This document shows, one piece after another, positions 7,889-63,855 of a stretch of DNA of 64,000 bases (position 1 is the first letter of the stretch; every line of letters begins with the position of its first letter). The DNA is from Chrysomallon squamiferum (lineage: Eukaryota; Mollusca; Gastropoda; Neomphalida; Peltospiridae). The DNA lies in assembly GCA_012295275.1 (NCBI GenBank), contig CM022679.1, positions 9,283,169 to 9,347,168 of the forward strand. Direction: 5' to 3'. A program made the position numbers and the translations under genes. The notes under the pieces are model-generated. The model did not search any database, was not told the origin of the DNA, and saw only the letters and a list, made by a program, of their open reading frames with translations.

Positions 7889-8054
7889 ATTTAAAAAATA
7901 CTATTTTTCTTTTATACGTTTAATGAATAGATCATTATTCATGGTTTACTGAATGTTTAAATTACAACATCAGTTATTAAACCGAAAAAAAAATACTTGA
8001 ATAAAATAACAATCATTCCACATGCGGTGAACATGCATATAATTACTGACTTAC

Positions 8055-8502
8055 CATCAATCATGTAACATTTTGCCGTTGGAAAACTGGTGCAATCCAA
8101 TTCTGACGGCCACAGAACATCGTTTCCACTCAGGACGTCATGGCATTCGTTGTAAGCAGCCTCGCACTGAACTCGGCATGGGACAGTCTGCGACTGTGTA
8201 TCGGCTTCACCGTGACAAGGGGGAAAAAACACAGAGCACACAAAATAGGTAAACACCGGACAGTTAGATGACACGGAGTTCAGAAGGGGCGAGATGGTTT
8301 CTTTTATCTTGTCCTGCGTTCTGTGACCGAAGATGTTCGGAAGAGACGTCGTATTGACGGTTTCGCGACAAGCCGAAATTGACGTTGCTTCACATTTTGT
8401 TACGACGGTGTGCCTGGCTTCTGCGAGTAGGAAGAAAAACAACAAAAACCACAAATATCGTTTGACATACTGTGTCAAGCACAAGAAACTTTCTTCACTC
8501 AT
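8055..8502 (-). CDS. Frizzled-type cysteine-rich domain protein, first coding exon (partial)
   Basis: This exon encodes the N-terminus of a Wnt-receptor-like protein. The start Met at 8502 is followed by a hydrophobic signal or anchor segment (about residues 16-28). A Frizzled cysteine-rich domain then spans about residues 37-145. Ten cysteines are visible at 37, 45, 81, 89, 96, 109, 113, 120, 137 and 145, the full number and spacing expected of a Frizzled CRD, including the C-x7-C, C-x6-C and C-x3-C-x6-C groups. The exon ends at a consensus donor (GTAAGT read on the minus strand, just below 8055) in codon phase 1. The open frame beyond that donor runs into intron and should not be used. No later exons were found at lower coordinates, so it cannot be said whether the gene is a Frizzled receptor, an sFRP or another CRD protein. 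I am confident of the domain and not of the gene identity. Confidence 0.82.
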
Positions 8503-18630: not shown

Positions 18631-21600
18631 TCAATGATCTGGAGAAATATTCTCACTCTGCGATGCACCGTTATCAAGCTGCCGAGTGGTAATGTCTTGT
18701 GAATAGTTTTCATCTTCAGTTTTGTCGCTTTCCATCTCATTCGACTGGTATTGCTTTGTTGGGGAATGGCTACTTCTGTCACATGACAGTCTTGTTTCGT
18801 CTTCAGATTTGCTCCGTTTCTCTCTAGATATGCTTCTTTTCTCCCTGGATTCCCGAGAATGGCTTCGTCTGTAGATTTTGTCGTCATTCAGCCTCGCTGT
18901 TAATTACAGAAAAAACTTAATTACATTTCAGTCAGTTTTTCAATTTTTTATTAATATTTCCCCCCTCCAAAAAAAAAAACAACAACAGAAACACGACAGT
19001 ATTTATTGAAAAAAATAAATAAATAAAATAAAATTAAAATAATAAAGTAAACACTTTTACACTCAGATTTCATTTCATTTGTGTAACAGTAAAGAAGTTT
19101 CTTTATCTTTCAAATCCTTGAACATTTTGAATCTTTAACTTGTTTATTATTTAGCAACCAATGCCTTAATTTTTTCAATGTTGTAAGCATGTGCTAAACA
19201 GTCGCATATTTGTTGCAGTTACACAAAAAATTTAATTTTTTGCTGGCAGACATTTTGAATCCTCTAAAAACCTGACAGAGAACATAACGATACTAATATA
19301 ACAACTAAAAAAACAAAAAACAAAAACAAAAAGAAAATATCTCTATAATCAAACTAAATATAGAACCATCTCTTTTGAAAAAAACAAAAAAAAATTAAAA
19401 ATAGCAATTGAAGTTTAACAGCCATTAAAATCAATTCAAATAATGGTTATTTTCTGCAGCTGCTGTTCATTAATAATGTCTAGTATGACTAATTTATTTC
19501 CCTGTGACAAGACATCAGTCAGACAGTTATATTTTAACAGCTTCATTGTAATGGGATCATGGATACCTCCATCTGTCGATGCTGTGTTATTGTTTTACCT
19601 TTGTCCCTACTGCTATGATCTCTACTCGTCGATCTCAGTCTGTCTCTGCTTCGTGACCTCCTTTTCACGTCTCGATCCTGACTTCTGGTTCTCTGTTTCA
19701 TTTCTCGGTCTCGGCTCCTCCTGCTGCTCGAATGTCTCCTTGATCGGCTCCTTGAGCGAGAGCGGGCAGATCGACTGGATCTGTGTCGATCCTTACTTCT
19801 TGAGTGTTTTCTGTGTCTGCTCCTGCTTCTTGTGTGTCTCCGTCTGTAATGTAATCAAAATAAATGATTTTTACACAAATACTCACACCAGTATTAATTA
19901 AAACAACATTTACAGTGAAAAGATAAATTTAATGATGGAATAGTGTGAATCTGTTTTGATAGACAAAATAAATATTTCAAGATTTTTATTAACCTGGTTA
20001 AAATACGTAATCAGCAGACTTCATGGCTGCAAGAAAATTAATCTTCAGTTACAAAGAGTTCTGATAATTTCATTAATGAACTAACCTCTCTCTGCTACGA
20101 TCTCGTCTATCCCGACTACGTGACCTTCGACCTCTACTTCTTGATCGACTACGTCTTTTCTTCTCTCGTTCTTTTCTTCTTTCTTCCCTTTCCTTATCCT
20201 CTTTCTCCTTTTCTTTTCTTCGTCTTTCCTCTCTCTCTCTTTCACGTTCTTTTTCTCTGTTCTCTCGTTCTTTTGCTAATCTTAATTCTTTAGCTTCTCT
20301 TTCTTCAGCATCTTCTCTCAGTTTTTTCTGCAACACAGATCACAAATGATAAATATGCTAATATATACAAACAGAATTTAACAAATGCCATTAAAAACAC
20401 ACAGTAAATTTCTAGAAAACTGACACAAGACAAAATCAACCCAAAAACTTAAGAAATAAATTTCGTCCTTAATACCAAAAATGTTAACAAAAATGTGCCA
20501 TAAATAGAAAATCAAATCTAGACACCAAGAATAAATGAATGAAAAAAAAAATTACAGGGATCATTTAAATCAATCATTCTAACATTGCTAATAAAACCCA
20601 TTCTAAAATGATGAGAACAAAGGAGCGGACAGATTAGGTTTAAACACCATACGGTTTTTGGCCTGTGGACCCTACCTGCTTTTCATCAACATATGCTCTA
20701 ATACGGGCATATCCTGTGTGCTGTCTACCGTACAAGTGCTCATCAATGCGCTGTTGGGCATCTCCGACAACCAGAAATGCACTACATACACTGCACACTT
20801 CCAGTGTCTTTTCGGGATCAGCCCACTGAGGCCCGGTGGGGTTCTACAACATGAAAGGACAAAGTATTACGACCTCATTCAAGGACACTCACCTTATATT
20901 TCTCAACAGTTGCCCGCACGGTGGCATATCCCGCATGCTGTTTGCCTAGAATGTGCTCGTCTTGCCTCTGAGGCATATCTCCAACGATCAAGAAAGCACC
21001 GCAAACTTCACACACTGACATTTGTTTTAGTGGTGGTAGCTCGGGCATTGGTTGCTGTCAAGTAAAAAAGACAGATCCAGTAATTAATCTACAGAGCAAG
21101 CTGTGGGTCTGCGAACCAAGAAATAAAAATTATTATTACCAGTTAACCTTTGCCCGCAATTGTTTTTTTTTTTTAATTGTTTTTTTTGTTGTTTTTTTTT
21201 AACCTTTAGGTATTTTTACTATTAGTTTTTTTTTTTTACCAGTTATCTTGAAAAATTCATTTAAATTTGTGCCTTTGCAACTGTAACTTTCCAAACACGA
21301 CAGATGTAAAGACAATTACTGAATATGGTCATAGTTTTATTTTTCACAATTTACCAACTACCAGGACACCATTCTACACCATTTTTTTTTTTTGCTTTAA
21401 AAAATTAGTGTTAATAAGATAAAATAGTAACAATAACAATAACAATAACAGTAATAAAATATAACTAAAAAGCTAATCCAAACTGGTGAAATGACCCAAT
21501 TCAGTATTACGTAGATTAATTACTGTGATCTCTCTTTTTTTTTCTCTTGGAAATCAGCATGTCTTCTGTATCTACTATATCAACTCAAATAACAACACCA

Positions 21601-24600
21601 CAAAATAAAACACATTAAATAAAACCATGGAATCCACTATCTATATTAAAAACATATTTTCTTTAAAATTATAAACAAGTACAATATTTTAATTTGTTCA
21701 TAAAAATAATTTTTCTTCACTATGCAAAAGATCAAAAATAAATTACTATTCAAGTTTAACAAAAAATGTAACAGAATAACTTTATATTTAGTATTTGCAT
21801 TTTGAAAAGGCTGTAACAAGGAAACATACAAATCTTGACAACCAACCAATTCATGTAAATTTTCTAATTAATATATTTTCCAGTGACGTGCATTGTCGTA
21901 TTTGTTACCAATTACAGGGAATAAATGGCAAGATGGCTAATGATTGGTCTTTCTCCATAACAAATAAAACATTGGATTTATATTTCAAAAATACGATATT
22001 CAAAGAATAAAAACACAAAGTAACTAAACTTTAAAACCATTAAACACACCAATGACACGACATATTTATGACATATGTGCAGAATACAGCAAGTTACCAA
22101 TTATAATTATTTTACTTAACTTCAACATTCTTTAAACAGGCATCATGTACAGACAACTGTTCATGAAAATTATTACAGAAAATCTTGAACCTCTTTTAAA
22201 AATATTCTAACTTTAAAAAAATATATATATATATTTATTCAGTCATTTTTTAATTGGTGTATTTAATACGACTGATAAAGCAACCATTAATCTTTTGTTA
22301 AAAACAGTGCTTATCCAATACATAAATATTTTATTTCAAACTGCCCACCATTTCCAGCTGACGTCTTTCTTCTCGTAACTGGTCGCACAACTTCATGACT
22401 CCCTGGGCTTCCTCGACTTTACCTTCACAGCCCAGCTGTTCTGCCTAATAATAATAACATCAAAATTATATATATATATATATATATATAAATACACATA
22501 TACACACACACATTTTACTCGTTTTCCAAATAACAATTTTAATAATGGTACTTATTTATACATATAAAAAAATATATATTCTTTGATTGTATTATTATTA
22601 GTGTTTCAAATTAAAAGATTATACATAAATTTAATGGTACTTATTTATATTTAAAAAAAAAAAAAAATTATATTCTTTGATTGTGTTATTATTAGTGTTT
22701 CAAATTAAAAGATTATACATAAATTTAAATAGATTCTAAAGTAACTTAGTTGAGAACCTGAGTGTTCTTTAGCTATTAATATCCGCTGTGTGATAAGTGA
22801 ATAAAAATAGATCTGAAAACATAATACAAAAACACAGACTATCTTTACATGAAATAAAAATAAAAATAATAATGAAATTGTTATTACCTGATTTACAAGT
22901 TCATTTATTTTTTCTGTTAACATTTCAGCTTTGTCCTCTTTAGCACTGGGGAAATTTCCATTCAGCTGAAACAAAATAAAATAACACTTCTTTTTCATTC
23001 TGACCTAAATAATTTCTCAATACAATCATATTCTTCAAAACAGATTACATTTTTTATTAATAATCTGTTTTGTTTATGTATTAAGAATATATTTATTTAA
23101 TAAAAATGGAATACAGCATTCTGATTCCACTTGTACAATATCTCATTGTATGAAATATTTTCTGCTTCTATTTACATACAATAATCTCTGAACAAGCAAT
23201 TGAATGTTTTCTTTTAAAGAGAGAAAGTGTATATTTAATTTATCCACAACTTTACAAATAGCAGAAATTTAGATTGGCAGTTGTTGTTTTTTTAAGCTAC
23301 GAGTGATTCAGATAAACATAGTTTGAATTAATTATTTGCACTAATATAGCTGTGAGATTAAGTGCATTTGGTGTCTCAACTTTAAAGGAAATCTGCCTTA
23401 TCAAAACAAAATTTAAAATTAAAATTTTAAACCAGTTAATGTAAGTATAATGAATATAGCTGTTACTTACAGTTCCTTGCATGGCATTTAAAGCCAAACG
23501 TTGATGTCCTCTTCGGATTCTCTTTTCCACATCAGCAATAAGGCTTTGCAAAAATCGCATAAACTCTTCTTCATAACCACACTTTTGATAACGAGAACTC
23601 TGTTCATATCTACAAAAGAAAATATAACAAAAAACTGAATTCATGCATCAAAATAATAATGATAATAATGAATGTACTCCATGGAACTGCCCCATTCATT
23701 TATGAACAGTCTGGTAAATCCAGTGGCTGCTGGGCTATGCTAAATTAAATTAGGTTTATATGAATATAATGGTGGTACTCAAGTTGATTCCAATTTCCTA
23801 ATTAGGTAGATTAATATATATATGATGAAAAAGTAAATGAACAATTCTCTATTAATTTGAATGTTACTTACTCTTTTCTAAGTATTTCATCATGTACCTT
23901 TGGACACTGACCTGCAAATCAGTAAATAAGAACACAAATTAAAATTGAAATTCAATACAATATGATATTAGTTGTTTTATATAAGAAAAGAAATTTAAAT
24001 TTCCAGTACACATAAAATAAAAATCTGTTCTGCATCGTTACCTTTATAAAAGTTAAAGTTTTCTTTACACAGATTTTTTTATTATTCATTTACATTTTTT
24101 TTCTTCTTTTTAATGTTATTTCAGGCACTGCTCAACAGCACCTTCAGTATTCTTAATCTTTTATAGTAAATACTTATATATTACACAATTGAATATCCTA
24201 TCAGGGCAATGTGCAGTAGAAAAAAAAAAACAAGGTAGAAAACTGCATATTTCAGAACGTTTTGACTAAATGAGAGAATAAGACATCAACAAGCCATTAT
24301 CATAAACATAAAATTAAACATCTGCATGTATGCATCAGCATTCTGTTTAGAACTAATAAAAATCTAAATATTTAATCAAACACATACACAAGTGGTAAAA
24401 TTATATAACAAATGTTTATGATTACTTGCATTCTGCTAGCAGTACCTGGAGAACTGGACCCAACTTTTGTAGGTTTGTAAACTGTAATCACTACTGTACA
24501 TGTAATTTATGTAGTCATTTATCATGTCCATCTCAAATTAGTTTAATTTGTGTACCAGTTTACTTTAATCACAACAGTAAAATAATAAATGCATTCATAC

Positions 24601-26405
24601 TGTTGGTCACATGATATTCTTTCATGTCACCAGCTAGTGAGGACATCCATCTCTGTAGTATTTCGTTGTCGATATGAAGTGTTTATCAATTAACTAAATG
24701 TCTTAAGGATGAGATTTGTGTTTACTGTCATTAACAATTCCATGAGGTTCGACTGACACAAATAAGGCATATTAATGATCATTATACCAGCTTCCTTGTG
24801 TCATAAGTGATGTAACAGGAAAAGGACACAGAATTATTTTTAATGTAATTAAATATTTTTGGTTTGACATCCATCACCAGATCCATTTTGTTTTTTTATG
24901 CTGGGGTGTTGCTAAACATTCATTCATTTACTTTCTGTAAATATCTGAAGTTATGTGCAGATTATAAAATGGTTTGCATTATATATATATGAACCAGTTC
25001 TGTAAAAAAATAAAAAAATAAAAAAATAAAAAATACAATGCTGTGTATTATACACTGGTTCTTGTTGCAATCAGCAAAATACAGTATTCATCACATTTTA
25101 AATATATCTTTCTAGAAAGAGTTCTGAATGTGTATTAAAGTGTGTGTTTGTGTCAACAGAAATATACATGTATTTACTTACCAAGATCAGCACGTGTGTT
25201 AACAAATAGTTCATGTGGACAGAAACCACACAGGAAATATTTACATATCTGGAAAAGAATCAAATTGCTTTTAGTATCTAGGGACAATAGTTATGTATCT
25301 AACCTGAATAAATCCAATATACCTTACAGAGATAAAAATGGGAAGAAACTCAAATCATAACAGATGATTTTTAAGAAGTTATTTCTAATACATTTTATTA
25401 GTTTACTTGAAATAAAAATGGTTTTAAGAACATTAAATCAATAAATGTCATATGAAAATCAGGAGTCAAGTTTTATATAACTAACTCATCTACAGCCTAC
25501 ATCTTTTGGTGTTAAATTAATCATGTACACTTTGTAGTCATAAGGATAAATATATTAGTTGTTATAAAATCAATTTAAATTTCAGTGTAATCTGCCTCTA
25601 GAGTGAATAATTTTGATGGGTTTTATCCATATTATAGAATAAGGTACATTTAATTTTTTTAAATGATATTCATTTTCCCCGTCTAGATAACATATATATA
25701 TATATATATATATATTTAAGGTAGTTAAATGACACAGGGGTGGCCATTTAAAAAATAAAATCAACAAAGAGCCCTTAATGATATATATATATATATATAT
25801 ATATAAATATATGTTATATGTATTCATTTCCAGACCCATTTTAAACCATTCTAGACTACTGATTTATGATGGTATTAGTTTCAGTGTTGATATTTTGGAT
25901 ACGGTCAAGTTTGGTTTTATAATTCGTAGGACTAAATTTATGTTAGGATTATCATTGAATGTAAATAATTGTAATCAGTAATGGTTAATGATTATATTGA
26001 ATTATTTTTACAATTTCTATTGTTTGTAGATTCTATATTTTACGAATTCAGATACCGAAAAGGTTGAAAATCTTTCAAAATACAATACAATGGAAGTATA
26101 AAATGCAATTCAAGTTGCTGAAAACTTGTAAAGATAAAGATTAAATGCTAATATTTGCAATTAGTTGAATTACGAAAACGGAAGGACGCACGGTTTCGTT
26201 TCTAACTCTAACTAAGCATGCACAAACGAACAAAATATACTCCTAACAATATCGCAACTTGTTTTCATTAGTGGATATCAGATATGTTTTTGATCATTTC
26301 TACCTCTGGATCATCCCAATGTACTTCACTCTTCTGGTCTGTTGGGGCAAGATTTCTACCCCTTCCCATTAATTCATCTAATAACGCCGCCGCACTAGCC
26401 GCCAT
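18631..26405 (-). CDS. LUC7L3: LUC7-like protein 3 (U1 snRNP-associated SR-rich splicing factor)
   Basis: LUC7 proteins bind the U1 snRNP and tune 5' splice-site choice in the nucleus. Coding exons, in order of transcription: 26405-26304, 25248-25182, 23911-23872, 23609-23471, 22965-22888, 22444-22349, then either 21054-20893 or 20843-20676, then 20327-20086, 19843-19599, 18896-18631. All junctions keep phase and give about 478-480 residues (human about 430). The N-terminus MAASAAALLDELMGRGRN matches the family. Next come the first CCCH-type finger (CKYFLCGFCP), a helix with RFLQSLIADVEKRIRRGH and KVEEAQGVMK, the second finger (encoded twice, see separate entries), a Glu/Arg/Lys-rich coiled stretch, an Arg-Ser domain over two exons and a Ser-rich tail ending at TGA 18631-18633. 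The exon at 22444-22349 has a weak donor (ATG|GTGGGC). The start codon lies in an AAAATGGCGGC YY1-type motif. Divergent partner: GSPT1. Confidence 0.93.
20676..20843 (-). CDS. LUC7L3: LUC7L3 second zinc-finger exon, version B (tandem duplicate)
   Basis: This is a 168-nt, 56-codon exon, also phase 0 at both ends, with a TTGTAG acceptor and a GTAGGG donor. It encodes 15 linker residues, then VCSVCSAFLVVGDAQQR and on to DEKQ. Over the 41-residue finger I count 24 identities with version A (59 percent). All zinc ligands are kept, the linker is unrelated, and there are no stops or frameshifts. It joins in frame to the same downstream exon. The 49-nt intron between versions A and B is very short for efficient splicing, so the two are probably alternatives. 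Confidence 0.85.
20893..21054 (-). CDS. LUC7L3: LUC7L3 second zinc-finger exon, version A
   Basis: This is a 162-nt, 54-codon exon with phase 0 at both ends, a GACAG acceptor and a GTGAGT donor. It encodes 13 linker residues, then the second finger beginning VCEVCGAFLIVGD and ending in QHAGYATVRATVEKYK. The CxxC and the H-x5-H pair are intact. Its VCEVCGAFLIVGD start is the same as the human version, so it looks like the canonical copy. It joins in frame to KKLREDAEER in the next exon. Confidence 0.9.
22543..22730. repeat. tandem duplication, about 95 bp, in a LUC7L3 intron
   Basis: Two adjacent copies both contain TGGTACTTATTTATA, an A-rich spacer, TATTCTTTGATTGT, TTATTATTAGTGTTTCAAAT and AAAAGATTATACATAAATTT. 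They differ by few substitutions and by the length of the A run. Non-coding. Confidence 0.85.
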
Positions 26406-45779: not shown

Positions 45780-47787
45780 TTAAATGAATTCAATTCCTTC
45801 ATATTTCACATTTCCTATTATTTTTTCAGACATGATAATCTCTCCGTCAATGGTGAAGGCTAACATGTAAGTTGCAATCTTCCCATTAATCTCTTCGGAT
45901 TTCAGTGCAATTATAACAGTATCCTCAGTTCCAGGCACAAATTTAAAGGATGAAAAACCCCTTGTTGGATATGTCAACCCCACATGGGTGACCTGAATAT
46001 CACTGAAAAATTTGTCTGCTGTAATTAGGAGATTGGTCCCATGCTTTTCATCAGAAACTTCGTCATATTTCTGTGAACTAGCACGACGAGGAAGAAAAAA
46101 CCACTTTTGATGAATGTCACTCCAAACTGCAGATTCATGTATCATATATCCTAGAAAAAAAAAAAAAAAAAAATAAAATAATAAAAATAATAATAATAAT
46201 AATAAATAAATAATAAAATAATAATAATTTTAATATTTGATTATTTTAAATGATGATTTCAACAAAAACACATAATTATTTATAAACTGATTATATATCT
46301 TTCATTTGCATAAAAAAACAAAAAAATAAAAATAAAAATAAAGTAATCTAAAACATAATCTAACTGCTGGGTGTATGGCACTGACAAATTAAGTGATGGA
46401 TTATAACCACTTTTTTTGGAAGCCTTTCAACATAGCCTAAGATGATATAACCAATGCAGTCTATGAGTTCGTGCAGCAAACAGTATATCAAAATTATAAT
46501 GTAAACTGGTGAAAGCTCATTATTGTCTCATACCTGGCAAAAGAGTTCCTGTTTTCTTCCTGAGAGCATTGTATTTTTCATGCCAGTCGTAATGGCGAAC
46601 ATCGCCATTTTGTCCAACTGATTTGACCCACTGAGGGTCAAAATTGACCACTTCACCTGTTGCTGTTGTCCATTCCTTACCCAAACCTCCAACATATAAC
46701 CTCTGTTCCTTCACTGTGGCCCATTCACATTTAAAACCTACAACAGAAAGTTTTTGTTATTGTTGGCATTTTCTGTGTGCTATTAAATTATTATTATTAT
46801 TATTATATATACATACATACTTGTTGTGTATCACATATTAATTTTATGTAATATAGACATTCCTCACATTATGCAAAATCCTGCAGATGTCACAATATAC
46901 GACGGAGTACTTGTGTGTCACAAATACATAACAGTATAATGAATATTAAAGTTTTTTAATTTAAAAAAATAAGCCAGAATTTCCAATGATTTGTCTTTGG
47001 AAAATATCCATTTCTTATTTAAGAAAATATTTCACTGAACATTTTAGTCATCTATTTTTGGTATATTTCACATATTTAACGGAGCAAATATTTACCCAAA
47101 TGTTTGGAAACTTGAATGAATCATAAAATGATGCAATTTAGATACAAACCTTTACTTCTTTGTCCATTGCCATCCGATAGAATTACCCATGGAATTACAT
47201 GATTGTTGAAAATTTCATAAATTACACCTGTCCTATCGTCAAATGAATATAATTTACCATTAAAACACAACTAGTTCTGATAATTCCATTCCTCTTCCAC
47301 CATGAGAATAAGATGAGCTAAGCACAATTGGTTGTTCCAAATTAACAACTATTTTCTTATAATCATCAGATATTGTGAGATTTCCTGTCCTGAAATAACT
47401 GATCCATGTATATTTCTTTTCTCTACTTTTGGAATTTGTGTCTAGATCTGTAATAAGTCCAATTTTGTACGTGTAACCTCCCTTAACTTTTATGGGTTTC
47501 GTTAGTGGATAGGTATTGTTGTAGGGTACACTCAATAACAGATGTGTGTAATCTAGTATATTACTGCATGGTATACTCGACGATTTTGGTATAAACATAA
47601 TGAATAAAATAAGTACAGCCCCTGTAAATAAAGCCATGTAAAATATAGTTCTTGTTTTCAAATGTAATTTGGCATTGCCCACTCTGTATGGAGTTGGACG
47701 ACGAATAGCTTTCATCCATTCTTGTACAGACGACGGATAACTAGCTGATATCATATCTAGTCCCTCTTCATCAGATGATAAACTCAT
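45780..47787 (-). CDS. CANT1: soluble calcium-activated nucleotidase 1 (apyrase), with a 1-nt frameshift
   Basis: CANT1 is a Golgi/ER type II membrane or secreted Ca2+-dependent nucleotidase acting on UDP, GDP and UTP; in vertebrates it supports proteoglycan synthesis. Three exons: 47787-47150, 46737-46534, 46150-45780. The start at 47787 is followed by a cytosolic tail and one membrane segment (about residues 48-66). Family landmarks of the five-blade propeller are clear: [76 protein letters not shown] and the conserved C-terminus VKYEGIEFI. One odd feature: after SELVVF an extra T in a T-run (AAAA at 47262-47265 on the plus strand) creates TTT TAA and shifts the frame. Removing one base gives a full 403-residue protein (human 401). 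All other exons and sites are intact, so an assembly or allele indel is likeliest. Confidence 0.92.
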
Positions 47788-59937: not shown

Positions 59938-61228
59938 TCACGACGTAAGTATATAGTATTTTACATAAATATATATATACACACACACATATACATATAT
60001 AATTTATTTAATTTAAACTTTAGCATGGAAGGTTTAACGTTAACATATTACCACAACAGTGAAAAAGTATTCAGTTTTCTTTAAATACAATGTTTTGATA
60101 TTAATAAACAAAAACAAACAAACACACAATAAATAAATAAATAAATAAATAAATAAAATAATAAATAAATAAATAAAATATTAAATAAATAAAATAAAAT
60201 AAAATAATAAAAACATAACACAAAAAACACGTTAAAATATAATTATTATAGGTTTATAAATTCGCGGAACAAAAAAAAAAAAAAAAAAAGAAGAAGAAAT
60301 TCGATCTTCTCCATAAACAATGAAGGAAAAAAAAAAATAATAATAATAATAATAACGGCTTAAGCGATATTACTTCAGACTGTTTCAGATTTGTCCTGTT
60401 ACAAAGAGTCGAAAGCAGGAATTTTAATGAGAACAACCACTTATAGTTATTTCTTCCAGACCTTTTGATCATGTTAAAAACTCGTTTTACAACTGTTGCG
60501 TTCATTAGTTATTTTGCATTTCATGACAGTTCAGACATGCTTGTACAACATATCAAAAACGTGTTTTATAACAGAATACTCTGATGTTACTTGGAAGCGG
60601 ATTTAAAATATTTAAATAATCGTAATATGACCAAAAGATAACATTTTCCCTATGTCACATATTACTGATTAATATATAAAATATTTATAGTAAATGAACT
60701 AAAACAATAACTGATATAAAGATAAGTCACGTCAAACGTTAATTATTGTTATGACGGGTTCGCTTTCCACATAACATGTTAACACTGTTATCTGATAAAT
60801 ATTAGAATATTCATTGTCGGAAGACGAAGGCTGTAGTTCCCAGAAAATGAAACCACCAGAGAGAAATTGTTCGTTCCACCGTCCATAAAATGCGAACATT
60901 TTGATGCCAATCTGCCAAAATGTTTCTGAAACTATTTGTTAGAACAGCAGTGTTATTTTGCTAGTGAAAATGGATGATACATTGAACATAGCCCTAAATA
61001 ATATTGGGAAGAAGCTGTGAACTCTGAAATTTCTTACTAAGGTTTAAACAAAGTATTATTAATAAACTTAATGAATATATTGACGTTGAAGTAAACTTAA
61101 TTTTAATATTTCTTTGAACAGATAACAAACAACCAGATATATCTATCCGTCAAAAATATTCACGTTTATGCTTGAACCACTGTGGGTGCTGCTAGATTAC
61201 TGTGGAAATTAAAGACAAAATATTAGCA
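59938..61228. other. intergenic region before coilin
   Basis: It holds an (AAATA/AAAT)n low-complexity tract at about 60121-60215, A runs at 60270-60290, and otherwise AT-rich sequence. No coding exon was seen. The coilin promoter should lie in the last few hundred bases. Confidence 0.5.
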
Positions 61229-63855
61229 ATGGCAGCGTCGGTGGGAAAATGTGCGAGAATTAAACTCTTCTTCAAACATTGCACTATTGAGCCTTCATGG
61301 CTCTTAATAAAAACAAAGCAGTTTCCTCTAGTAGAAGATATTGAAAAACATATTTTAACTAAGTTTAATTTACCATTTTCGGGCATTAAATTATTGTCGG
61401 ACGGATGCATTCTTCCTTCGTGGGAGAGCACAGAATTGCTGCAGGACAACGATGCTGTAGATGTTGTTATGTACGATTAAATTATTGAAATTATTTTATC
61501 AATGAAAGAATAATATTTATATTATATTTTTGACAAATCTGGACATGAATTAATCCAAGTTAATAACAATATATTATTTAAACGTACAAACAGTCAAACA
61601 CGTACATACTATATTATGTATATTATTATATATATATTATTTATTTTATTATTATTATAATTTTATATGATATTAATATTATTATAGTATATGAATCACT
61701 GACTGTAAACAATTGTTGTTTGGACGTAGAAAAGTAATAGTTCTTAAATACTTCTTTCTATGTCATTATGTTTCAGATTTTAATAGACGTTGAAATTGAT
61801 AAAATGACACATAATGAAGTTGTACATAAAAAGCTTTCTGATATTAAAGAAGTTGTTCAATTTTTTTATTTATTTATTTATTTATTTTTATTATTTTAGC
61901 AAAAAGAATATGGACACATACAGTCATACAATAGAGGAACCGCAACATAAGAAAAAGAAACATAAAATAAACAAGGATGAAAATACTAAGAAAGATCCAG
62001 GAGTTGATGAATCTCTTTCAAAAAGAAACTCTATTGCAGAAGTTACAAATAAAATGGATTGTTCTGATCCCAGTGAAAAAGGTTCAGCAGAATCTACTTG
62101 TGTAAAGAAAAGAAAAAGAAAACATAAGAAAGAAAATGGCAATATTGAACAGAAAGCCACTGACTCTTGTAGCGAAAACATTGAAAAATCAGAGAACAAC
62201 ATATCACAAAAAAAGCGTAAGAAAAAACAAAGTGATATTGATGAAGTTGTGGATTCAGTCATTCAGGATCTAAATCACATGGGTAGCAGTAAGGTCTTAG
62301 AAACAGTTCCTAAAAGTATTAATAATGGTGTGAAAAATGTCACGAGTTTGTTGCCAGAGTCCACAACAAAAGATGCCTCTGATAATGTGAGTCATTCTCA
62401 GACTTCTTCACTAAATGTTTCAAACTGCGTAAATAATGTGCCATTAGGAGATTCAGAGATCAAAAAGAAAAGAACAAGAGTAAGAAAGAGGAAAAGGAAA
62501 ACATCACCATCACAAGTGAACTCTCCCAGCCTTACTGTAAGTGAAAAACCTGCAGAGATGGACGGGTCAGCCAGTAAGGATATCAAGCTCAACTTACCAA
62601 GGTCAAAACAACCAAATAATAAACGAATCACATTCAATGATTCTTCCGAATCACAAGAAGAAGAGGAAGAAATCAACGTTTCTAGTAAACCTGAATATAT
62701 TTCACCATCAAAGGATATTTCAAAGATCCCTAGTGCAAGGCAGAATATTGATACAGGAATCACTGAAAATGAATTTTCCTATGATAATTCTGTGGTAAAA
62801 GTGAGAACACCCAAAATTCTAAATAATGTAGAGTCAGTCCAAATTTAACTAACTCCACCAAAGTTTACACCAGGCAGAAACCTTGTTACATGAACACAGA
62901 GGAACATCTTGTTACAGTACCAGTTGTTTCTAAGGTTTAAATTTTTATTTTTTTTTTCACTCTATCTTGTTGTTAGAAAATAGTAGAGGCATCAATTCAA
63001 TAATGGAGAAAGAATGTATATTTTTACATAACTCAGCTTAGTATAACAGAAGTAGTAATTATGTCACGTCAGTTTTTTCATATTTTTAAATCAGTTTTCA
63101 TTAGTTTTTTTATGTATTTATTAATCTGTCCTTTGTTTGCATATTTTAGACCATTTTATTTTAAACAGCACATAATAATTTTTATGTTTACATAATAAAA
63201 GATTATGATGAGTTCAGGTGTAAACTTGTATTTCTTTTTCTGATGTCATTAACTAGACATCTTTAGACTGGCAAACCTCAAAAGCAAAACATTTGAACAG
63301 CACCATTTTCATTTATCTGTAATCATTATTTTTAAAAGATGTATTATCTTTGAAAAGTTTTTATATTTATATTTATGTTTACATAATAAAAGATTATGAT
63401 GAGTTCAGGTGTAAAACTTGTATTTCTTTTTCTGATGTCATAACTACACATCTTTAGACTGGCAAACCTCAAAAGCAAAACATTTGAACAGCACCATTTT
63501 CATTTATCTGTAATCATTATTTTTAAAAGATGTATTATCTTTGAAAAGTTTTTATATTTATTTAATGATTCAATTGATGTGGGTTTTATATTGGATAATG
63601 ATTATTATTATTAAATATTTAATATTGGGGTATATGTAAAATTGAGTTTTATTGTTCTTACATTTTAACTTTTTACACTATTTATTTCAGGAAACTCCAA
63701 AAGTAAATTGCACAGAAATGGACACATCTGTATACAACGAAAATGTGAATGGAAATTTTACAAATAAAGAAGAAACAGTTGTAATTCCCAAAGATTATTC
63801 CAAATTTCCTGCATTGCATGGACCACCAAGAATAGGAGACAAAATTGCATTTAAG
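61229..63855 (+). CDS. COIL: coilin, Cajal body scaffold (3' end beyond the window)
   Basis: Coilin organises Cajal bodies, nuclear sites of snRNP and snoRNP maturation. Three exons are visible: 61229-61470, 61900-62800 (or 62794) and 63691-63855. Exon 1 encodes the ubiquitin-like self-association domain: MAASVGKCARIKLFF, WLLIKTKQFPLVEDIEKHIL, GIKLLSDGCILPSWEST, LLQDNDAVDVV. Its donor (GTTAT|GTACGA) matches the phase of exon 2 (C AAA AAG). Exon 2 encodes a long low-complexity Lys/Ser/Glu region with several KKKRK-type nuclear signals. Exon 3 opens the C-terminal Tudor-like domain with VIPKDYSKFPALHGPPRIGD and KIAFK, matching human [22 protein letters not shown] in outline. It ends at donor AAG|GTGAAT. 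The rest of the domain lies past 64000. Confidence 0.88.
63181..63561. repeat. near-identical 191-bp tandem duplication in coilin intron 2
   Basis: Copy 1 (63181-63371) and copy 2 (63372-63561) are almost identical, differing by a few one- or two-base indels and substitutions (for example TGTAAACTTG against TGTAAAACTTG). Recent duplication is implied. No boxes, stems or frames were found that would give it a function. Confidence 0.92.

Follow-up and report, generated by a model that had tools for sequence, protein, structure and literature searches.

Tandem second-zinc-finger exons in the LUC7L3 gene of Chrysomallon squamiferum, probably an old mutually exclusive pair

Results

Two versions of one zinc-finger exon in LUC7L3

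The LUC7L3 gene of Chrysomallon squamiferum contains two neighbouring exons, designated 7a and 7b, that encode alternative versions of the second zinc finger, and our sequence comparisons make it likely that they are an old pair of mutually exclusive exons, used one per mRNA. The gene lies on the minus strand of the window, which is the whole 64-kb stretch of DNA that was analysed; exons E1 to E6 run from 26405 to 22349 and are followed by 7a, 7b and the RE/RS exons. The features are listed below in the order of transcription.

26405-26304, 25248-25182 and 23911-23872, minus strand: E1, E2 and E3 of the LUC7L3 gene
23609-23471 and 22965-22888, minus strand: E4 and E5 of the same gene
22349..22444 (96 nt), minus strand: E6, the upstream exon, whose weak donor would be spliced to 7a or 7b
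21509..21540, minus strand: 5' arm of the predicted stem, which would form 29 base pairs with its partner over a 414-nt loop
21063..21094, minus strand: 3' arm of the same predicted stem, at -40 to -9 relative to exon 7a, where candidate branch points and the pyrimidine tract lie
21054-20893 (162 nt), minus strand: exon 7a, phase 0/0, linker and second zinc finger (from splice sites, frame and tree)
20892-20844 (49 nt), minus strand: mid intron between the 7a donor and the 7b acceptor
20843-20676 (168 nt), minus strand: exon 7b, phase 0/0, the alternative version of linker and second zinc finger (from splice sites and frame)
20086..20327 (242 nt), minus strand: E9, the downstream exon of the RE/RS region, which would receive 7a or 7b

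The first zinc finger is encoded within E1-E5 (22888..26405, minus strand). Exon 7a is bordered by an acceptor ending in gacag and the donor gtgagt, exon 7b by an acceptor ending in tgtag and the donor gtaggg, and the two share the zinc-ligand pattern C-X2-C-X15-H-X5-H. A preliminary description of this DNA had reported tandem duplicated LUC7L3 exons at this place, and the report was borne out: the coordinates hold, splice sites and zinc ligands are intact in both copies, and each exon has phase 0 at both ends. When the exons were joined in silico, the frame into the next exon was kept by the 7a form, the 7b form, the form with both and the form with neither. The 7a and 7b forms scored 272.2 and 268.6 bits, respectively, against the Pfam LUC7 family (PF03194; cut-off 33), and the solved structures related to them were yeast Luc7 chains. 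The named relatives of 7a and 7b were annotated as luc7-like protein 3, the rest being unnamed or hypothetical, and the LUC7L3 core was nearest to that of Haliotis (81% of 172 residues; 26 proteins compared). From the names of the relatives, the RE/RS exons downstream and the presence of a separate LUC7L-type gene, the gene was assigned to the LUC7L3 subfamily and not to LUC7L.

The matches in the genome (404.6 Mb, 22 contigs) comprised a single copy each of 7a and 7b and one further LUC7-type gene. The latter (C15:28839387-28842917; L001) shares the contig with LUC7L3 at a distance of about 19.5 Mb and has one second-finger exon, LUC7L-like as judged by eye. As a LUC7L-type gene, typed in the same manner, it is placed at C15:28839534-28841417, and its finger reads CEVCGAYLGIHDNDRR. 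The idea that 7b is itself a LUC7L-type finger was ruled out, as 7b grouped with LUC7L3 fingers in the tree. No retrocopy recording a splice form was present among the genome matches.

Similarity of the two copies

The 7a and 7b fingers are identical at 24 of 44 residues, and as homologous neighbours they combine this identity with phase 0/0 in both exons. The earlier figure had been 24 of 41; the recount returned the same 24 identical residues, over a 44-residue segment. When the same number of base differences was placed at random, a mean of 13.5 identical residues remained (sd 2.1, maximum 20, 2000 trials). The observed 24 exceed this maximum, and the likeness is therefore beyond chance. 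A stop codon was gained in 84% of the 2000 trials. Between the copies, dN was 0.43 and dS 1.58 by NG86, the latter being near saturation. Each copy also resembles its own type in other molluscs, as 82% of 44 residues are identical between 7a of the window and 7a of Nucella, and 77% of 44 between 7b of the window and 7b of the scallop Ylistrum.

One version in most products of relatives

Evidence for alternative use came from the abalones. Haliotis rubra has annotated isoforms with 7a (P0006) and with 7b (P0002) at the same position, and H. rufescens likewise has P0007 with 7a and P0003 with 7b. In the isoform pairs of these two species the exchange is a clean swap at the finger, with identical sequence before and directly after it. 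Using the 7b part as query, the 7b-type segment was found directly after the E6 segment in H. rubra, H. rufescens and Saccostrea cucullata (P0004). Among the matches listed, H. asinina P0008 is a 7a isoform and the 7a type also occurs in Patella, Nucella and the brachiopod Lingula. The double-form query, for which the best 120 of 304 matches were taken in, listed 7b-type proteins in scallops, and a scallop 7b query assigned Ostrea, Crassostrea virginica and the cephalopod Argonauta to the 7b type. The protein of Owenia that combines the two types came from the double-form query, that of Tegillarca from the scallop query, which also yielded two 7b proteins on short contigs. The preliminary description had proposed looking for the pair in other molluscs and annelids; both types are indeed found in molluscs and in the model of the annelid Owenia. 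Because the searches retrieve only proteins that have exact words in common with the query, the absence of one version from a species has little meaning.

The named lophotrochozoan entries among the matches listed numbered 16, with 7a only in six, 7b only in eight and both in two. One exon per product is thus the form of 14 of the 16 in these protein records of relatives, the exceptions being the Owenia model P0005 and the Tegillarca model P0123, each of which joins 7a and 7b; the Tegillarca model is without the first-finger exon. From relatives, mutually exclusive use is well supported, by the isoform swaps in two abalones together with the 14 one-version entries among the matches listed, and for C. 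squamiferum it is probable. The mutual exclusivity suggested in the preliminary description is upheld as regards the swap, and the two of the 16 named entries among the matches listed that join both exons speak against its strict form. Two 7b-only proteins without a name, P0126 (on contigs of up to 3782 nt) and P0127 (on a 1990-nt contig), can be read without interruption for 460 and 409 aa, respectively, which suggests that they derive from spliced RNA.

A short intron between 7a and 7b

The 49-nt length of the intron between the copies was also confirmed, and it is small for this genome. The other modelled introns of the LUC7L3 gene range from 243 to 1294 nt. In a survey of CCT and myosin genes (54 CCT and 81 myosin matches), 45 estimates of intron size had a minimum of 111, a next value of 183 and a median of 534 nt, a survey that is weak for very short introns and for introns read through in frame. 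Both matches behind the 111-nt estimate lie within one open frame, and it is probably no intron. What looked like a short intron in one CCT gene was discarded as the apparent fusion of an exon with noise. Some animals do splice introns of around 50 nt.

The AG dinucleotides of the mid intron are at positions 4, 18 and 48, and from these the predicted branch adenines were placed at +14/15 and +25 to +28; another adenine, at +41, stands just 9 nt before the exon. Retention of the intron leads to a stop after five codons. Among nine donors of the gene, pairing with U1 was best at 7a (-12.6 kcal/mol against the U1 5' end), compared with -11.4 at 7b and -7.3 at E6. According to passages of PMC7969005 and PMC5740500, a donor-branch distance below about 50 nt is taken as steric interference, the branch points of human OGDH are 25-41 nt from the donor, and the steric type accounts for 57 of 629 human clusters. 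The predicted branch point of 7b, at most 28 nt from the 7a donor, is well within this distance, and on this ground it is likely that 7a-7b joining is sterically blocked, U1 at the 7a donor and U2 at the 7b branch point being unable to bind together. Breaking of the frame by double inclusion was looked for as another means of exclusion and was not found, as 162 and 168 nt stay in frame; frame and mRNA decay therefore do not enforce exclusion here.

A predicted stem over the 7a acceptor

The preliminary description does not mention a stem at the 7a acceptor. The predicted stem has 29 base pairs with a perfect 15-nt core (-36.9 kcal/mol), and its 3' arm covers the candidate branch points and the pyrimidine tract of 7a. 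The best duplex between the intron and the 7a acceptor reached -38.4 kcal/mol, a value attained in none of 300 shuffled introns and none of 300 shuffled acceptors (means -22.0), so that the duplex is stronger than chance; a perfect 15-nt repeat alone arose in one of 200 shuffled introns. The pair probability of the core was at least 0.997 in ten folds, namely four pre-mRNA stretches at 37 C and three each at 25 and 10 C. When eight acceptors of the gene were tested, 7a (z -6.6) and E6 (z -5.9) stood out, the E6 acceptor lying in TA repeats. Only two of 800 random sites in the window reached -38.4, one being the 7a stem itself and the other a GA repeat; in an earlier sample of 150 random sites there were also two. 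The 20-21-nt core motif occurs at two sites in the 404.6-Mb genome, which are the two stem arms, inverted, and a dispersed repeat was thereby ruled out. By these models, the stem may hide the 7a branch point and pyrimidine tract.

Other structures were considered at the locus. A strong fold spanning both exons was rejected, as the 521-nt stretch folds like its shuffles (z -0.20), and so was pairing between the mid intron and the introns on either side (z -0.8 and 0.9). The docking/selector pairing of other Dscam clusters was looked for and not found, the 5' arm showing no pairing beyond shuffles with the mid intron, 7b or the downstream intron (z 0.2). No Rfam family was above threshold in the window.

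Age of the duplication

A finger tree was made from 31 proteins (33 fingers), hand-chosen from 127, and the two window exons, giving 35 rows on an alignment of 44 columns, which is few for that number. The 7b types formed a single group with support of 98/92; of its 16 rows, those of P0016, P0084 and P0018 are from unnamed proteins. A group of seven molluscan 7a rows had support of 86/84, and the first Owenia copy grouped with Lingula at 97/92. The type nearest to the LUC7L3 finger of insects and spiders in this tree is 7a. Constraining a pair to its own clade was rejected for the window (p-AU 0.0117) and for Haliotis (p-AU 0.0017), and a duplication after the split from Haliotis was thus ruled out. 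With Owenia, Tegillarca and all gastropods, forcing the copies together was not rejected (p-AU 0.113, 0.072 and 0.052, respectively). In 22 rows compared, residue 13 is I in 9/9 rows of 7a and V in 13/13 rows of 7b, and residue 39 is T or E in 7a versus Y, F or H in 7b, with no overlap. The exon order, 7a then 7b, is common to the window, Owenia and Tegillarca.

As judged from these sequences, the duplication is older than the split of C. squamiferum from Haliotis, and very probably older than the gastropod-bivalve split. An origin before the parting of molluscs and annelids is the best topology and is not proven. A 7b-type finger is also present in the unnamed proteins P0016, P0084 and P0018 of the tree and in P0017, whose finger is the same as that of P0016. 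If any of these four proves to be non-lophotrochozoan, the 7b type is older still.

Discussion

Alternative explanations and the proposed mechanism

The two exons could be routinely included together, so that the second finger would be present twice and a product would have three fingers in total. The models of Owenia and Tegillarca and the in-frame double form speak for this, but the 14 one-version entries among the 16 named matches listed speak against it, the Tegillarca model without its first-finger exon is not a careful one, and the 49-nt intron would have to be removed by way of a branch point no further than 28 nt from the donor. Gene finders tend to fuse duplicated exons, which also weakens the double models, and we regard routine double inclusion as improbable. 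Still less credible is that the animal really uses a single exon, its neighbour being a leftover or minor noise. It is true that the matches of several species contain one version, 7b in oysters and scallops, 7a in Patella and Nucella, but a missing version means little in exact-word searches. Moreover, frames, ligands and splice sites are intact in both window exons, each version is conserved across species (7a at 82% with Nucella, 7b at 77% with Ylistrum), and dN is low against a nearly saturated dS between the copies (0.43 against 1.58). Nor do we think it at all likely that recent, independent duplications gave rise to the pair in several lineages. The tree has only 44 columns, and it retains the copies together for Owenia, Tegillarca and all gastropods; against this stand the rejected clades of the window and Haliotis pairs, the 98/92 support of the 7b group, the separation of the types by residues 13 and 39, and the common order of the exons.

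A more serious alternative accepts the exclusive use and takes the stem as incidental, with the choice made by proteins and splice-site competition; we give it close to an even chance. The layout of branch site, donor and acceptor alone could yield exclusion, and the E6 acceptor, which lies in TA repeats, also scores high. On the other side, none of 600 shuffles reached the duplex, two of 800 random window sites did so, of which one is the stem and the other a GA repeat, the genome contains the core motif in these two arms and nowhere else, and the stem is placed exactly on the functional elements of 7a.

For the reading of 7a and 7b as mutually exclusive exons, the mechanism would be as follows. 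Each mRNA would take 7a or 7b, which would give two LUC7L3 proteins differing only in the second finger and linker. With U1 at the 7a donor and U2 at the 7b branch point unable to bind at once, 7a would not be joined to 7b. The stem would bury the elements of the 7a acceptor and make 7b the default, and its opening would allow 7a; that the stem biases the choice in this manner is a tentative proposal, with chances slightly short of even. We consider it unlikely, as a speculation, that the stem and U1/U2 competition across the 49-nt intron together set a switch through which the splicing machinery would sense its own state and adjust its preference among 5' splice sites to tissue, stage or temperature.

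Functional consequences and known systems

LUC7L3 is a U1 snRNP-associated splicing factor. According to passages of PMC9436412, the second finger of yeast Luc7 is near the duplex of U1 and the 5' splice site. Passages of PMC11732430 and PMC12862383 describe LUC7 proteins as differing in the classes of 5' splice sites that they favour; in the former, human LUC7L/L2 and LUC7L3 support different classes. We infer from this a possible, rather doubtful difference between the 7a and 7b fingers in the 5' splice sites that they support. In these passages, the diversity of LUC7L/LUC7L2 and LUC7L3 comes from separate genes, while 7a and 7b come from one gene. A single LUC7L3 gene in which the second finger and linker alone are exchanged amounts to a natural domain-swap experiment that molluscs have conserved, and the pair offers a direct test of the share of the second finger in 5' splice-site choice and of whether animals retune this choice without a second gene.

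Duplicated exons in a splicing factor are already known from U2AF1. Exons Ab and 3 of vertebrate U2AF1 (U2AF35b/U2AF35a; portions of PMC5224494) are likewise tandem duplicates within a core splicing factor that are used alternatively, and RNA structure near the acceptors contributes to the choice, as we propose for 7a. That pair encodes part of the UHM, whereas the LUC7L3 pair encodes a zinc finger; it concerns recognition of the 3' splice site, unlike LUC7L3; and mRNA decay reduces the transcripts that contain both exons, while the double form of LUC7L3 is in frame (same portions of PMC5224494). For exons 4a/4b of vertebrate OGDH, exclusion is similarly enforced by the short distance of 25-41 nt between the first donor and the branch points, which is below a proposed threshold of about 50 nt (PMC7969005, in part). 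OGDH is a metabolic enzyme, unlike the splicing factor LUC7L3, and according to the same part of PMC7969005 its branch points are far from the acceptor, whereas the whole LUC7L3 intron is 49 nt and its branch points are predicted only. Steric hindrance together with RNA secondary structure controls a two-exon pair in exon 17 of insect Dscam, as worded in a title cited in PMC7969005. Dscam, unlike LUC7L3, is a cell-surface protein. The 49-nt intron and the long stem make the LUC7L3 pair a compact case of exclusion not enforced by the reading frame. No report of duplicated LUC7 exons was found among the top-ranked results of the literature searched, whose coverage leaves subscription papers mostly outside, and within that literature the LUC7L3 instance is apparently new.

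Other features of the window

A coilin N-terminal exon is located at 61202-61480 on the plus strand (Pfam Coilin_N, 55.8 bits). Coilin is a Cajal-body protein, so two snRNP-related genes, this one and LUC7L3, are about 35 kb apart, probably by coincidence. Exons of an apyrase-type gene (Pfam PF06079) are found at 45780-46145 and 47260-47787 on the minus strand, and a reading frame with an Fz domain (Pfam PF01392) at 7957-8502, also on the minus strand.
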